Of a DNA stretch of 64,000 nucleotides, positions 54,735-59,779 are shown one piece after another (positions within the stretch are counted from its first letter, which is position 1; every line of letters starts with the position of its first letter). This DNA is from Nocardioides bizhenqiangii. Its GTDB lineage: Bacteria; Actinomycetota; Actinomycetes; Propionibacteriales; Nocardioidaceae. Both the position numbers and the translations under genes were made by a program. The notes beneath the pieces are model-generated. The model ran no database searches, was not told the origin of the DNA, and worked only from the letters and a program-made list of their open reading frames with translations. The stretch lies in contig NZ_CP141059.1 in assembly GCF_034661235.1 (NCBI RefSeq), positions 4,277,501 through 4,341,500 on the forward strand. The letters run 5' to 3'.

Positions 54735-55526
54735 GTGAAGACGGCGGCGTACGACGACCTCGTGCTGCGCCTCCGGGCCGCCGGGTGCGTCTTCGCCGAG
54801 GACGAGGCCCGGCTGCTCCTCGACGCGGCGAACGGGAGCCTTCTCGAGGCCCTCGTCGCGCGCCGGGTCGCCGGTCAGCCGCTGGAGCACGTCGTCGGCT
54901 GGGTCGACTTCGCCGGGGTCCGGGTAGCGCTCGACCCCGGCGTGTTCATCCCGCGGCAGCGGACCACCTTCCTGGTCGATCTCGCCACGGAGGTCCTGAC
55001 GGGGGACGGCGTGGTCGTCGACCTCTGCTGCGGTTCGGGTGCCCTCGGCCTCGCACTGGCGCACCGGCGCCCCGGCATCGAGCTGCACGCGGCCGACCTC
55101 GACCCGGAGGCCGTCGCGTGTGCCCGGCGCAACCTCGGGCCGGTCGGCGGGACCGTGCACCACGGCGACCTCGACGCGCCGCTCCCCGAACGGCTGCGCG
55201 GCCGGGTCGACGTGCTCGTCGCCAACGTCCCCTACGTGCCGTCCGCGGATATCGCGCTGATGCCCCCGGAGTCCCGCGACCACGAGCCGCGCGCCACGGT
55301 CGACGGGGGTGCCGACGGGCTGGACGTCGTACGCAGGCTCGCGGCGATCGCTCCCGGTTGGCTCGCGCCCGGGGGCACGGTCTTCGTCGAAACCGGCACC
55401 GACCAAGCCCCGCCAGCGGTCGCAGCGTTAGCCAGCGCCGGTCTGGACGCCCGGGTCCATCACGACGACGACCGCGACGCGACCGTGGTCGCGTCGACGT
55501 GGAGGGGTTGCGGACCCTGGTCGTGA
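54735..55526 (+). CDS. PrmC/HemK-related glutamine methyltransferase of unknown substrate
   Basis: 263 residues. An N-terminal helical PrmC-like domain is followed by the SAM-binding motif [16 protein letters not shown] and the catalytic tetrapeptide as NVPYVP instead of the NPPY of PrmC. That change marks the TIGR03704-type paralogues, whose target protein is unknown. GTG 54735. Its last 67 bases overlap the convergent HxlR gene. Confidence 0.88.
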
Positions 55527-56179
55527 TGCCGGTGCCAGGTGGGTAGAGCCCGCGCCAGCCCGCGCGGGCCCTGCACCTCGATTGCCCCGGACCGCAGCGC
55601 GCCGCCCCATCGAATCTCTCCGAGGTGCCAGCGGGCGAACGCGACGGGATCGTTCACGATGACAACGAGATGTTCCTCGCCGCCGGGATGCTTCTCGCAG
55701 ATCTCGGCCTCGCCTCGTTCGATCAGCAGCCAGTTGCGGCTTCCTCCCCCACGCAACGTGGGGTAGTCGAAGCGGACCAGCACACGCCGTTGCGGCAGCA
55801 CGTCAAGGTCGAGGAAGAACGTCGCCCACATCCAGAGGACGACGCCGGGGTGCGCCTGCTCGGGCGTCAGGTCCGCCCACCTCGATCCCCAGTGCTGAAG
55901 CGCGACCAGGACCGCCGACAGCTCGCGACCCGCCTCGGTCGGAACGTACGTCGAGCCACGACCGTCGGGCTTGGGCTGGATCTCGATCACCCCGGCGCGC
56001 TCGAGATCGCGAAGCCGCTTGGACAACAGCCCGCGCGACAGGCCCGGAGCTCCGTCCGCGATCTCGTTGAACGTCCGGCACCCCAGGATCACGATGTTGC
56101 GAAGGATGATGATCGACCAACGCTCGGCGAGCAGCTCCGACGCGCGCGCGATCGGGCAGTACTGGCCGTAGGTCCTCAC
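55460..56179 (-). CDS. HxlR-family transcriptional regulator with C-terminal sensor domain
   Basis: 239 residues. The first 105 form the HxlR winged helix (YGQYCPIARASELLAERWSI, LLSKRLRDLERAGVIE) with the conserved Cys8 often used for redox sensing. The remaining 130 residues are an added SCP2-like or small-molecule-binding region (VLVRFDYPTLRGG, VIVNDPVAFARWHLGE). Divergent from the class III aminotransferase; the shared region carries two identical-type palindromes likely bound by this protein. Confidence 0.9.
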   Translation of the reverse strand: MRTYGQYCPIARASELLAERWSIIILRNIVILGCRTFNEIADGAPGLSRGLLSKRLRDLERAGVIEIQPKPDGRGSTYVPTEAGRELSAVLVALQHWGSRWADLTPEQAHPGVVLWMWATFFLDLDVLPQRRVLVRFDYPTLRGGGSRNWLLIERGEAEICEKHPGGEEHLVVIVNDPVAFARWHLGEIRWGGALRSGAIEVQGPRGLARALPTWHRHHDQGPQPLHVDATTVASRSSS

Positions 56180-56214
56180 CGATCCAGTCTCTCACCGGAG
56201 AGGCATCGCGTTGG

Positions 56215-56256
56215 GTTCACTTCCTGAACCCCGCCTCCGGGGTTCAGAGATTGAAC
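56215..56256. promoter_or_regulatory. Twin GTTCA-N5-TGAAC operators
   Basis: GTTCACTTCCTGAAC (56215-56229) and GTTCAGAGATTGAAC (56242-56256) are both perfect 5-5-5 palindromes with centres 27 bp apart. They lie in the 144-bp region between the divergent HxlR and aminotransferase genes. Confidence 0.75.
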
Positions 56257-56323
56257 TTGTGGCACCTCGGAGTGCGCCGGACATTGGGAACGGCAGCTCG
56301 GCCGACCCGATGAGAGGTGCGCG

Positions 56324-57640
56324 ATGGAGCTCGACGAACTGGTCTTCCACCCCTGGACGATCCAGGGGCCGCGAACCGTGCCGACCTTTGTCGGCGGTGC
56401 TGGCAGCTATGTGGTGGACGCCAACGGCCGGCGCTACCTCGACTTCAGCTCACAGCTGGCCTTCACCAACCTCGGTCACCAGCACCCCCGCATCGTCGCG
56501 GCGATCAAGGACCAGGCAGACCGGTTGTGCACGTTGGGCCCCGGATACGCGTCCGACGTCCGCGGCGAAGCGGCCCGGCTGATCGTCGAGGTCGCGCCCG
56601 AGGGGCTGGGCCGCGTCCTGTTCACCACCGGCGGCACGGAGGCGATCGAGCACGCCGTGCGGATGGCCCGGCTGCACACCGGCCGGCCGAAGGTGCTTGC
56701 CGCGTATCGCTCGTACCACGGCTCCACGGCGACCTCGATCCACCTCACCGGTGATCCCCGTCGCTGGGCCAACGACACCGGCACTGCCGGCGTCGTCCAC
56801 TTCTTCGGTCCGTTCCTGTACCGGTCGGCGTTCGGTGCGAGCACGCCTGAGGAGGAGTGCGAGCGTGCCCTCGCGCATCTCGAGCAGGTGATCCTCCTCG
56901 AGGGAGCGGCGACAATCGCTGCACTGGTCCTCGAGCCGGTTTCCGGCAGCTCTGGGGGCGTCGTGCCGCCTGCCGGCTATCTTCGCGGAGTCCGGGAGCT
57001 GTGCAGCCGTCACGGCATCGTCTTCATCGCCGATGAGGTGCTGGTCGGGTTCGGTCGGACCGGTGCCTGGTTCGCCGTCGAGCACGACGGCGTGGCTCCG
57101 GACCTGCTGGTCTTCGCCAAGGGCGTCAATTCCGGATACCTGCCCCTGGGAGGGGTGCTGGTCGGCGATGCGATCTACGAGACGTTCATGCAGCGTCCCT
57201 ACCCGGCAGGCATGACCTACAGCGGGCATCCGCTCGCCACCGCATCAGCGGTCGGTGCCATCACTGCGATGAGGGGCGAGGGCACAGTGGCGTCGGCAGC
57301 CCGGCTCGGCGCCGACACCCTGGGACCCGGGCTCGCCAAGATCGCCGAGAACCATCCCTGCGTCGGCGATGTCCGCGGCATCGGTGGATGGTGGACATTG
57401 GAGCTCGTGCGTGACCGTCAGTCCAGGGAACCGCTCGTCCCTGTCGGTGCCACCGGCCAGGCGAACGCTCCGATGGCCGCGTTCAGCAAGTCATGCCTCG
57501 ACCGCGGCCTCCTTCAAATGGTCCTGAGCAACCGCGTCCACGTCGCGCCGCCGCTCAACGTGAGCGACGCCGACGCCGCAACCGGACTGGCCATCCTGGA
57601 CGAAGCCCTGGCCGAGGTCGATACGTTCCTGCACTCCTAG
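56324..57640 (+). CDS. Class III pyridoxal-phosphate aminotransferase
   Basis: 438 residues. PLP-enzyme features: FTTGGTEAIEHAVRMAR, the conserved Asp in FIADEVLVGFGRTG and the Schiff-base Lys in VFAKGVNSGYLPLGG. It resembles omega-amino acid:pyruvate or taurine-type transaminases; the amino donor cannot be told from sequence. No ATG alternative; SD is weak. Divergent HxlR regulator probably controls it in response to the amine substrate or product aldehyde. Confidence 0.92.
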   Translation: MELDELVFHPWTIQGPRTVPTFVGGAGSYVVDANGRRYLDFSSQLAFTNLGHQHPRIVAAIKDQADRLCTLGPGYASDVRGEAARLIVEVAPEGLGRVLFTTGGTEAIEHAVRMARLHTGRPKVLAAYRSYHGSTATSIHLTGDPRRWANDTGTAGVVHFFGPFLYRSAFGASTPEEECERALAHLEQVILLEGAATIAALVLEPVSGSSGGVVPPAGYLRGVRELCSRHGIVFIADEVLVGFGRTGAWFAVEHDGVAPDLLVFAKGVNSGYLPLGGVLVGDAIYETFMQRPYPAGMTYSGHPLATASAVGAITAMRGEGTVASAARLGADTLGPGLAKIAENHPCVGDVRGIGGWWTLELVRDRQSREPLVPVGATGQANAPMAAFSKSCLDRGLLQMVLSNRVHVAPPLNVSDADAATGLAILDEALAEVDTFLHS

Positions 57641-57651
57641 ACTTCCGGGTA
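57638..57651 (+). promoter_or_regulatory. Leaderless-type promoter before the CorC leader ORF
   Basis: TAGACT (57638-57643) overlaps the aminotransferase stop codon and lies seven bases before ATG 57651. Confidence 0.55.
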
Positions 57652-57713
57652 TGGACGATCCTCGAAGTCGGTCCCGTTCACCTTCATTGCTGCAAGGAGG
57701 TGAACGGGCATGA
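57651..57713 (+). CDS. Putative 20-residue leader peptide of the CorC-family gene
   Basis: A 20-codon frame starting MDDPRSRSRSPSLLQ and ending GGERA. Its TGA (57711-57713) overlaps the ATG of the transporter gene, so it is positioned to couple translation. It begins Asp-Asp-Pro and is rich in Arg, Ser and Pro. It spans the hairpin that holds the downstream ribosome site. The Asp/Pro-rich start recalls the ribosome-destabilising leaders of Mg2+ transporter genes such as mgtL; that link is an inference. Confidence 0.5.
   Translation: MDDPRSRSRSPSLLQGGERA
57673..57708 (+). promoter_or_regulatory. SD-pairing hairpin before the CorC-family gene
   Basis: CCCGTTCACCT (57673-57683) pairs perfectly with AGGTGAACGGG (57698-57708) around a 14-base loop. 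The right arm contains part of the strong SD AAGGAGGT, and the stem ends one base before the ATG. Confidence 0.75.
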
Positions 57714-59026
57714 TCGACTCGCAGACCTGGCTCAGCCTCGCCCTGGTCGTGGTCTTCGTCCTCGTCGGCGGCGTCTTCGCCGCGACCGAGATCGCCCTCG
57801 TGTCCCTGCGCGAGAGCCAGGTCAACCAGTTGGAGCAGCGCGGCCACCGCGCCGAGCGGGTGGCGGCGATCGCACGAGACCCCAACCGCTTCCTGTCAGC
57901 AGTCCAGATCGGCGTGACGGTCGCCGGCTTCTTCTCGGCCGCTTACGGCGGGTCGACGCTCGCGCCCGACGTGGCGCCGTACCTCGTCGACCTCGGCCTC
58001 GGCAAGGAAGCCTCCGACACTGCCGCACTCGTCCTGATGACGCTCGTGATCGCCTACCTGTCGCTCGTGCTCGGCGAGCTGGTGCCGAAGCGGCTGGCCC
58101 TTCAGCGGCCGGTGCCGGTCGCGCTCGCGACCGCGCCGGTGCTCGACCGGTTCGCGACCGTGATGCGGCCGGTGATCTGGCTGCTCTCGGTGTCGACCAA
58201 CGCGCTGGTCCGGCTCCTCGGCGGCGACCCGAACGCCGTCAACGACGCCGTCAGCGACGAGGAGCTGCGCGACATCGTCACCACCCACGAGACCCTCGGC
58301 GACGACGAGCGCCGGATCGTCTCCGATGTGCTCGCCGCCACCCACAGCACCCTCAAGGAGGTCATGCAGCCGCGCGGCGACGTGGCGTTCATCGACGGCA
58401 GCACGCCCCTGGTCGAGGCCGTCACGTGGGTTTCGGGGCAGCAGTACTCGCGCTACCCCGTCACCGGCGAGGGCTTCGACGACGTGACCGGCTTCCTCCA
58501 CGTCCGCGACCTCCTCGACGTGGGTCAGGACGATCGGCGCAGCGTCGCCGAGGTACAGCGCGAGGTGCTCCACCTCCCCGGCACCAACCGCGTCCTCCCC
58601 ACTGTCTCGATCATGCGCCAGGAAGGCACCCATCTCGCCGTCGTGGTCGACGAGTACGGCGGCACCGACGGCATCGTGACCCTCGAGGACCTGGTCGAGG
58701 AGGTGGTCGGCGACATCCGCGACGAGTACGACGAGCCCGAGGCCGCGTTCGACGAGGCCGGCGCCGCCACCGTGGTCGACGCGGGCCTCACCATCGAGGA
58801 CTTCGCCGAGGCGACGGGGATCGCGCTGCCCGACGGTGATTACGAGACCGCGGCCGGATACGTCATCGCCCGGCTCGGCCGGCTGCCGGACGTCGGCGAT
58901 GGGGTCGAGGTAGGGCCTGCCCGCCTCGAGGTCGAGGAGGTGGAGGGTCGGCGGGTCACCCGGCTCGCGATCAGCACGGTCGAGTCGGAGCCCGACAGTG
59001 CGGGCGGCGGATCGGATCTAGGCTGA
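57710..59026 (+). CDS. CorC/HlyC-family transporter (DUF21-CBS-CorC)
   Basis: 438 residues. The DUF21/CNNM membrane domain (1-190) has ATEIALVSLRESQV and LGELVPKRLALQ. A CBS pair (about 205-330; PRGDVAFIDGSTPL, VVVDEYGGTDGIVTLEDLVEE) and a CorC/HlyC domain (about 345-430) follow. The family exports or balances Mg2+ and similar ions, with the CBS pair binding Mg-ATP. A very strong SD AAGGAGGT precedes ATG 57710 but is partly paired in a hairpin and lies within a short upstream ORF. Confidence 0.94.
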   Translation: MIDSQTWLSLALVVVFVLVGGVFAATEIALVSLRESQVNQLEQRGHRAERVAAIARDPNRFLSAVQIGVTVAGFFSAAYGGSTLAPDVAPYLVDLGLGKEASDTAALVLMTLVIAYLSLVLGELVPKRLALQRPVPVALATAPVLDRFATVMRPVIWLLSVSTNALVRLLGGDPNAVNDAVSDEELRDIVTTHETLGDDERRIVSDVLAATHSTLKEVMQPRGDVAFIDGSTPLVEAVTWVSGQQYSRYPVTGEGFDDVTGFLHVRDLLDVGQDDRRSVAEVQREVLHLPGTNRVLPTVSIMRQEGTHLAVVVDEYGGTDGIVTLEDLVEEVVGDIRDEYDEPEAAFDEAGAATVVDAGLTIEDFAEATGIALPDGDYETAAGYVIARLGRLPDVGDGVEVGPARLEVEEVEGRRVTRLAISTVESEPDSAGGGSDLG

Positions 59027-59031
59027 CGACG
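59019..59031 (+). promoter_or_regulatory. Leaderless promoter before a short ORF
   Basis: TAGGCT (59019-59024) exactly six bases before GTG 59031, although only a short frame follows. Confidence 0.55.
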
Positions 59032-59150
59032 TGAACCGGCTGCAGATCTCCGCGGTGACGCCGAACCGGGTCTCGGTCTGGGCTGAGGACCTCGAAGCGG
59101 TCGATCAGCCCTGGGTGACGTCGCCTGGCCGCACCAGTCCGGACTCGTAG
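59031..59150 (+). pseudogene. Short or truncated ORF at the left edge of the two-component block
   Basis: 39 codons (VNRLQISAVTPNRVSVWAED, then LEAVDQPW) behind a good leaderless promoter. From 59102 on it enters the 16-bp repeat and runs antisense to the response regulator gene, so the original gene may have been cut when that block arrived. I do not recognise the protein. Confidence 0.4.
59102..59117. repeat. 16-bp direct repeat, left copy
   Basis: CGATCAGCCCTGGGTG, identical to 61813-61828. It lies over the stop codon of the response regulator gene. Confidence 0.8.
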
Positions 59151-59779
59151 GCGAGCACCACGAGCTGCGTGCGGTCACGCAAGCCGTGGCGAGTGAGCAC
59201 GTCGCTGATGTGCGACTTCACCGTGGCCTCGGCAAGGAACAGCGAGGCAGCGATCTCCGCGTTCGACTCCCCGCGAGCAACTAGCTTCACGACATCGCGC
59301 TGACGATCGGTGATCGAGAGCGTCGGGGCATCGGGCCTTGCGACGCCCGCGACGTACTGCTCGATCAGTCGGCGGGTGATGGTGGGCGCCAGTAGCGCGT
59401 CTCCTGTGGCGGCCGCCCGGATGCCCCACCACAGCTGCTCTCGCGGCACGCTCTTCAAGAGGAACCCGGTGGCGCCTGCGGACAAGGCGGCGGCAACCGT
59501 CTCATCGGTCTCCATCGTGGTGAGCATGAGAACCCGAGAGCTGGCGCCACTTGCGACGATTCGCTTCGTGGCTTCGATGCCGTCGATGCCAGGCATCCGC
59601 ACGTCCATGAGGACGACGTCAGGTGACGTACGACGGACCGCCTCGATCGCTTGCGCGCCGTCGGCGGCCATGGCGACGACCTTGAACTCCGGATTGCTGC
59701 CGATGATCGCGGCCAGCCCCTCACGCACCAGATCCTCGTCGTCGACGACGACGACCGTGACTGCGTCGGCCGCGTTCAT
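59105..59779 (-). CDS. NarL/LuxR-type response regulator
   Basis: 224 residues. Receiver domain with acidic pocket VVDDED, phospho-acceptor Asp59 (VLMDVRMPG), Thr in MLTTME and Lys in LLKSVPRE; LuxR-type HTH at the C-terminus (LSITDRQRDVVKLVARGESNAEIAASLF, AEATVKSHI). The ATG overlaps the kinase stop (ATGA). Target promoters may include its own and that of the divergent lipoprotein unit. Confidence 0.95.
   Translation of the reverse strand: MNAADAVTVVVVDDEDLVREGLAAIIGSNPEFKVVAMAADGAQAIEAVRRTSPDVVLMDVRMPGIDGIEATKRIVASGASSRVLMLTTMETDETVAAALSAGATGFLLKSVPREQLWWGIRAAATGDALLAPTITRRLIEQYVAGVARPDAPTLSITDRQRDVVKLVARGESNAEIAASLFLAEATVKSHISDVLTRHGLRDRTQLVVLAYESGLVRPGDVTQG

Follow-up and report, generated by a model that had tools for sequence, protein, structure and literature searches.

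A conserved short leader frame and a predicted ribosome-site hairpin in front of CNNM/CorC-type genes of Nocardioides bizhenqiangii and related actinobacteria

Background

In translational attenuators of the ermC type a leader frame overlaps a hairpin that hides the ribosome site of the following gene. The leader described here lies in front of a CNNM/CorC-type gene of Nocardioides bizhenqiangii, within a stretch of 64,000 nucleotides that was analyzed as a whole (the window). Its frame likewise overlaps a predicted hairpin over the next ribosome site. Unlike the ermC-type systems, the CNNM leaders yielded no conserved stalling peptide, and the product is not that of a drug-resistance gene.

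The coupled leaderless small ORFs of mycobacteria (Shell et al. 2015) are, according to the available part of that paper, shorter than 50 codons and overlap the next start codon with their stop as RTGA (PMC4633059). With these the CNNM leader shares the predicted leaderless start, the length below 50 codons, the RTGA overlap and a peptide that need not be conserved. As leaderless small ORFs with such an overlap have already been described, the coupled part is no new kind. In contrast to the mycobacterial ORFs, the CNNM leader carries a covarying hairpin over the Shine-Dalgarno site in the near clade as well as a retained rare CGA codon, and several families of the class show the arrangement on one and the same gene family. 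The available portion of PMC4633059 names no CNNM gene among its cases, and the open-licence papers searched, mostly as titles and beginnings of abstracts, did not describe a leader of this kind ahead of actinobacterial CNNM/CorC genes. What is new with respect to known coupled leaderless leaders is the conserved ribosome-site hairpin, the kept CGA codon and the CNNM target.

Leaders of Mg2+ transporter genes have been described as well. In Salmonella, a Mg2+ transporter gene has a hairpin at its ribosome site that is governed by Asp2 and Glu5 of the eight-residue leader mgtQ (Choi et al. 2021; PMC8092293, available in part). The CNNM leader resembles mgtQ in being short, in its early acidic residues and in the putative control of a hairpin at the ribosome site. 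However, mgtQ is located inside an operon, has 8 residues and serves an importer gene, and in the excerpt early ribosome loss raises expression; the CNNM leader probably starts at the promoter, and ribosomes lost early in it should leave an exporter-type gene switched off. The EPDP leader of mgtA, mgtL, acts via Rho-dependent transcription termination, as stated in the accessible part of PMC11282234. Acidic and Pro residues at the leader start and a cation transport gene downstream are common to mgtL and the CNNM leader, whereas in 8 of 34 close CNNM leaders Lys replaces the acidic residue at codon 2.

CorC-domain proteins are presented in the available text of PMC12421838 as Mg2+ or polyamine efflux factors, with corC and mgpA being induced by Mg2+ and an IRD sequence standing at the start of CorC. 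PaeA, which has the same domain architecture as the CNNM-CBS-CorC_HlyC protein, exports polyamines (PMC12421838). According to the same excerpt the YoaL leader frame overlaps the upstream region of mgpA (yoaE), and a change of its start codon to a stop codon lowers mgpA translation. Thus, a leader frame precedes a CorC-domain cation-efflux gene there too. YoaL/mgpA differs in the TerC transmembrane domain of the product, and that part of PMC12421838 describes neither a hairpin nor a leaderless start.

Results and discussion

Composition of the locus

Upstream of the leader lies a class-III aminotransferase gene (56324..57640, + strand), which scored above the cut-off of the PRK06062 model; a gene for an HxlR-type regulator (55460-56179, - strand) is divergent from it. 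The TAG of a -10-type box, TAGACT (57638..57643, +), doubles as the stop codon of the aminotransferase gene, and 7 bases separate the box from the leader ATG. The leader ORF (57651..57713, +), identified from sequence and conservation, has 20 codons plus TGA, encodes MDDPRSRSRSPSLLQGGERA and reads ATG GAC GAT CCT CGA AGT CGG TCC CGT TCA CCT TCA TTG CTG CAA GGA GGT GAA CGG GCA TGA. Codons 5-6, the rare pair CGA AGT, occupy 57663..57668 (+), and the CGA is kept among close leaders. The TGA at 57711-57713 overlaps the CNNM ATG at 57710, the two forming an ATGA (57710..57713, +). Since the spacing between box and ATG fits, the message is predicted to be leaderless and probably starts at or beside the leader's own ATG. 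On re-reading the sequence, the box, its spacing, the 20-codon frame, the TGA/ATG overlap and an 11-bp hairpin, all reported in the first-pass annotation, proved correct base for base.

The gene following the leader (57710..59026, +) encodes a CNNM/CorC-type membrane protein of 438 aa with Pfam matches to the CNNM transmembrane domain (6.7e-45), CorC_HlyC (2e-19) and CBS (9.5e-11). Its best solved relatives were 4hg0 and 7m1t, the former named magnesium and cobalt efflux protein CorC, the latter hemolysin with CBS domains. None of the NCBIfam models reached its cut-off with this protein; the PaeA model scored 169 bits, below its cut-off of 500. The family is mostly linked to Mg2+ (or polyamine) efflux and the substrate here is putative. 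Three more CNNM genes are located elsewhere in the genome, two of them adjacent to each other. No second CNNM gene was found downstream: where tblastn gave a match (58 loci), it was to the CNNM gene itself and to no other, over flanks of at most 1.5 kb.

The hairpin over the ribosome site

Sequence, fold and covariation define two arms of a hairpin within the leader. The 5' arm (CCCGTTCACCT, 57673..57683, +) encodes S-R-S-P, and the 3' arm (AGGTGAACGGG, 57698..57708, +), which takes in a portion of the ribosome-binding site, encodes (G-)G-E-R. They form 11 perfect pairs, the 3' end being located one base before the CNNM ATG. With one G-U included, the stem can be extended to 13 pairs, and GGAGGT of the ribosome site is then inside it. 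The CNNM gene has its Shine-Dalgarno site, read from the sequence as AAGGAGGT, at 57694..57701 (+); positions 57698-57701 of this site lie in the perfect stem and 57696-57701 in the extended one.

A 141-nt segment folded with z = -2.12, 7 of 200 shuffles folding equally well, and the leader alone reached z = -3.04 against shuffles. The 13-pair stem was matched by none of 60 shuffles. The hairpin is therefore predicted from sequence, fold and covariation to hide the downstream ribosome site. In the region 56200-59200, Rfam gave three matches, all far under the gathering score (best E 2.5). Short matches aside, the genome itself held no further copy of the element; one candidate (L002) was the opposite strand of the same palindrome. 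An intrinsic terminator was considered and rejected, as the stem is followed by CATGATCGACTC with no T-run.

A search of genome contigs for the exact palindrome returned 24 stretches. The CCCGTTCACCT...AGGTGAACGGG palindrome was present on six contigs of one Acidobacteria MAG (L010, L011, L013, L015, L022 and L024), where it is perhaps a dispersed repeat.

Conservation of frame and stem within the genus

The CNNM protein was searched against 196 genomes of the same genus and matched in at least 101 places, from which 90 upstream regions were extracted. First-look candidates were scored up to a limit of 8 per genome in this search and of 5 per genome in the wider search. A genome without a match may therefore still have the gene: G009 gave none in the protein search, yet gene and leader were both present.

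Frame, box and overlap were found together in 34 of the 90 upstream regions. A frame that ends at the CNNM start was present at 36 loci, and from these the 34 leaders were chosen with the TANNNT box as part of the selection; L075 and L095 were left out, and L075 was counted as a leader in the architecture survey below. The leaders have 18-21 codons, an ATG or GTG start, a TANNNT 12-14 bases upstream and a TGA at the CNNM start. Relative to the CNNM start, which was placed by homology, their stop lies at 0 to +4; the sequences are related and not independent. Alignment gaps within the leader were whole codons, with the exception of the poorly aligned L047. At L075 an 11-codon, leaderless-looking frame (VTPPATRPAPC) ends at the CNNM start without a hairpin and may be a degenerate leader or chance.

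In the alignment of the 34 sequences, 98.2% of the cells of a ten-pair stem were paired, and 5 of the 10 pairs showed changes on both sides. None of 500 shuffles equalled this pairing, and sliding the partner by 1-3 columns reduced it to 39-51%. RNAalifold recovered the same stem from the alignment unprompted. Thirty cells departed from Watson-Crick pairing, 24 as G-U and 6 unpaired; departures that are mostly G-U argue for a structure in RNA and against a DNA operator. Stems with largely different letters occur as well, namely CCATCCATCCG/CGGATGGATGG in L072 and, outside the genus, ACCGTCCCTCG/CGAGGGACGGT in L175 and CAGGCCCTCCT/AGGAGGGCCTG in L185; L186, also from outside the genus, likewise kept its stem with largely different letters. 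It follows from these four loci that conservation acts on the structure and not on R-S-P or G-E-R, the peptides encoded by the arms. Close relatives thus retain short frame and stem together with the CNNM gene, and the compensatory changes for which the first-pass annotation suggested looking are present in the stem. Against a chance origin, this comparison of 34 copies from the genus weighs more than the fold statistics.

Conservation is not complete. The stems of L036, L047, L049 and L060 were not beyond chance length, and the first three folded no better than shuffles (z 0.5, 0.32 and 0.66, respectively). Among the 43 nearest upstream regions of the genus, 8 were without the leader and the switch is therefore dispensable. 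Four of these 8 genes look directly leaderless, by a test that undercounts as some minus-strand starts were off by a base or two.

Codons and peptides of the leaders

In 33 of the 34 closest leaders a CGA was present at codon 4-6, followed by a codon ending in T or G as the count required. The following codon was AGT in 23, TGT in 7 and another in 3 cases. In the alignment the CGA is located 11 nt before the stem, while its distance from the start codon varies by whole codons. The preceding codon in these 33 leaders encoded Pro in 23 (CCT in 10, CCC in 7, CCA in 6, CCG in none) and otherwise Ser (9) or Ala (1).

Over all leaders, CGA made up 73 of 1530 codons (4.77%) in comparison to 44 of 21547 (0.20%) in the CNNM genes, and AGA 1.18% in comparison to 0.03%; these figures are inflated by relatedness, freedom from codon bias and the constraint of the stem. 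AGT, CCT, TGT, CAT and TCA were enriched too, partly as the stem sequence fixes some codons. Arg in total accounted for 294 of the 1530 leader codons, our own estimate for GC-rich random sequence being about 15%.

An acidic residue was found at codon 2 in 53 of 89 leaders and at codon 2 or 3 in 69. Among the 34 closest leaders, codon 2 was acidic in 26 and Lys in 8. We considered an acidic codon 2 as a generic trait of leaderless genes and rejected it: leaderless-looking genes of the 64-kb window had one in 1 of 14 cases (codon 2 or 3 in 5 of 14), and 27 leaderless-looking CorA genes have Ile. The motif PRSxxRSP recurs among close leaders. Its RSP, however, tracks the sequence of the stem and disappears in leaders with an altered stem, which weakens R-S-P as a candidate stalling motif.

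Distribution beyond the genus

A covariance model was run over 391 genomes of the order and gave matches at E up to 0.01 in 27 genomes. Within the genus the model recovered the 34 training loci and, in addition, that of G009 at E up to 1.1e-4, with weaker matches following at E 0.014-0.1. Ten matches from the order lay outside the training set; five of these belonged to a different genus of the family and one to a different family. All ten were located directly before a CNNM gene with a short frame open to its start; three of the frames were read by eye and the remainder were also recovered by script.

The architecture was then defined independently of the stem as a TANNNT 12-14 bases before an ATG or GTG that opens a frame 5-40 codons long, the stop of which lies between -18 and +13 of the CNNM start, with expected counts derived from dinucleotide shuffles. 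It was present in 89 of 201 CNNM upstream regions, about 1.2 being expected. The near regions of the genus had it in 35 of 43 cases (0.18 expected) and the more distant ones of the genus in 0 of 47 (0.06 expected). Further regions in the order had it in 28 of 51 cases (0.27 expected) and those in the class in 26 of 60 (0.64 expected); these 51 and 60 regions were hand-picked with nearer relatives first, 7 of the 51 were also matches of the covariance model, and some counted leaders of the order, e.g. the 30-codon L211, may be chance. As judged from sequence, the coupled leaderless part reaches other families of the class. In a tree of 61 CNNM proteins, 48 with and 13 without a leader, presence and absence needed 6 changes.

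Stems longer than those of 95% of shuffles accompanied 30 of 35 near leaders, 13 of 28 leaders of the order and 4 of 26 of the class, and none of the 14 leaders at f19 loci. The coupled frame hence ranges more widely than the hairpin. In the f19 loci (L224-L238) the leaders span the last 50-35 or so bases ahead of the CNNM start and encode other peptides, e.g. MNDSTPGRHSVQGS; they carry the pair CGA CAT in 12 of 14 cases and an RTGA overlap, without a significant hairpin. At the g9 loci of the order (L193-L198) the leaders, MDDYALRPPSRPRPRGL and MDVALLPRPLPCRRGR among them, carry a stem of 9-11 bp whose sequence differs. As their frames end 12-13 bases before the CNNM start, this stem may act differently from that at 57673-57708.

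Other cation-transport genes of the genus did not share the arrangement, which was found at 0 of 30 CorA and 0 of 30 TerC loci (among the latter, L343 had no start codon that could be scored). An MgtE gene was detected in 2 of 29 genomes. By the box test for directly leaderless genes, 27 of 30 CorA and 1 of 30 TerC genes scored. Of the 27 leaderless-looking CorA genes (loci L289-L318), 26 begin with V/M-I-V-D.

Proposed mechanism and alternative explanations

Frame and stem are conserved together with the CNNM gene, the stem has changed in a compensatory manner and the overlap of stop and start has been retained. For these reasons a switch controlled by translation of the leader, as put forward in the first-pass annotation, is the best reading. 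That a coupled leader with a hairpin over the Shine-Dalgarno site is conserved here appears very likely to us. We also consider it probable, with somewhat more reserve, that it is a cis-acting switch in which leader translation controls the CNNM gene, the nature of the signal aside. The element is not peculiar to this strain, judging from the sequences compared.

Transcription would begin at the leader's own ATG and give a leaderless message, in which the hairpin would enclose the Shine-Dalgarno site of the CNNM gene. With the site shut in, poor CNNM initiation by free ribosomes is expected. A ribosome completing the leader would unwind the hairpin and terminate at the TGA overlapping the CNNM start; the ATGA/TGATG overlap suggests that the same ribosome, or another one on the freed site, may then start the CNNM protein. 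Early drop-off, at the acidic beginning of the peptide and the slow pair CGA-AGT, would leave the hairpin closed and the exporter off. By ribosome geometry, the mRNA entry of a ribosome would sit at the base of the stem when CGA occupies its P site. Hence the slow codon and an acidic chain of four or five residues would meet the roadblock together, and this position would be a natural place for the drop-off decision.

The same anatomy would also suit constitutive translational coupling, in which nothing is sensed and the leader serves solely to let ribosomes start efficiently on a leaderless message and pass on to the CNNM start. We give this a substantial, although less than even, chance. Coupled leaderless small ORFs are frequent in mycobacteria, one example having a non-conserved peptide (available part of PMC4633059), the leader peptides here differ strongly from family to family and the f19 leaders keep the overlap without a hairpin. 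Plain coupling would leave unexplained why a hairpin hiding the Shine-Dalgarno site is maintained by compensatory change in the near clade; it has no need of the near-invariant CGA of the close leaders or the CGA CAT of 12 of 14 f19 leaders, and it fits poorly with the arrangement being absent from the 30 CorA and 30 TerC loci. The rare Arg codon is the starting point of an alternative in which slow decoding or stalling at CGA, elsewhere AGA, sets the opening of the hairpin in response to Arg or polyamines and the CNNM protein exports polyamines like PaeA. The CGA in 33 of 34 close leaders, the excess of CGA (4.77% vs 0.20%) and AGA (1.18% vs 0.03%) over the CNNM genes and the 169 bits against PaeA, short of the cut-off of 500, speak for it. 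Classical amino-acid attenuators, however, carry a run of the codon, whereas usually one CGA precedes the stem here; total Arg (294/1530) is just modestly over the estimated 15% or so, and AGT, CCT, TGT, CAT and TCA are enriched as well. This specific alternative is therefore improbable in our view.

An ermC-like switch, with an antibiotic or other ligand stalling the leader ribosome at R-S-P and thereby freeing the ribosome site, would agree with the attenuator geometry of leader frame, hairpin over the Shine-Dalgarno site and 5' arm within the frame. It is quite unlikely given that R-S-P follows the stem sequence, being lost with the stem change in L072, L060, L175 and L186, and that the downstream gene encodes a cation-transport protein and no resistance determinant. 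Palindromic arms (GTTCACC/GGTGAAC) adjoining a promoter-like box could also mark a repressor site just downstream of the promoter, the short frame being incidental. Arms that change together between relatives and tolerate G-U (24 G-U against 6 unpaired cells), a frame stop pinned to the CNNM start and the lack of a further copy in the own genome, short matches aside, make such a DNA operator very unlikely. Any GC-rich DNA holds hairpins and the element begins at the stop codon of the aminotransferase gene, so that chance or a terminator of that gene had to be weighed as well. We regard both as negligible: no T-run follows the stem, conservation and covariation contradict them and a chance origin of the stem is refuted by the covariation test on the 34-sequence alignment.

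Returning to the switch controlled by leader translation, the signal is less clear than the anatomy. The family being mostly linked to Mg2+ (or polyamine) efflux, the simplest use would be an exporter that is on when leader translation is robust. High Mg2+ is a first, speculative candidate for this condition. The mgtL-like Mg2+ signal proposed in the first-pass annotation would agree with the acidic residue at codon 2 or 3 (69 of 89 leaders); however, codon 2 is Lys in 8 of the 34 closest leaders, Pro is replaced in 10 of 33 and the CGA (33 of 34) is better conserved. Mg2+ as the signal is thus tentative, and Arg, polyamines or the general state of translation are equally hypothetical candidates.

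Leaderless initiation uses undissociated 70S ribosomes (PMC9031893, available in part). A Mg2+-sensing leaderless leader that is spread class-wide and is the mirror image of mgtL could build on this, leaderless initiation itself then being part of the sensor. At low Mg2+, 70S ribosomes starting from the 5'-terminal AUG would be lost at the acidic N-terminus and the CGA, leaving the exporter off; at high Mg2+ the ribosome would pass, open the hairpin and couple to the CNNM gene. We find this version rather doubtful. If the switch controlled by leader translation is right, it would provide a concrete conserved target with a testable switch for leaderless leader ORFs, which abound in mycobacteria but mostly have no known function, and ribosome-destabilisation sensing would extend beyond the enterobacterial cases with opposite polarity.

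At codon level, the retention of a rare CGA at a fixed distance from the stem is a puzzle of its own. Patches of A/T-ending codons (CAT AGA, CCT AGA, TGT AGT, CGA AGT) were also seen in the leaders or upstream regions of L203, L223, L246, L250, L254, L257, L263 and L276. They recur across different families, in the same codon phase where read by eye. A nucleotide motif CGA-AGT / CATAGAC possibly recurs between families, as noticed by eye alone.
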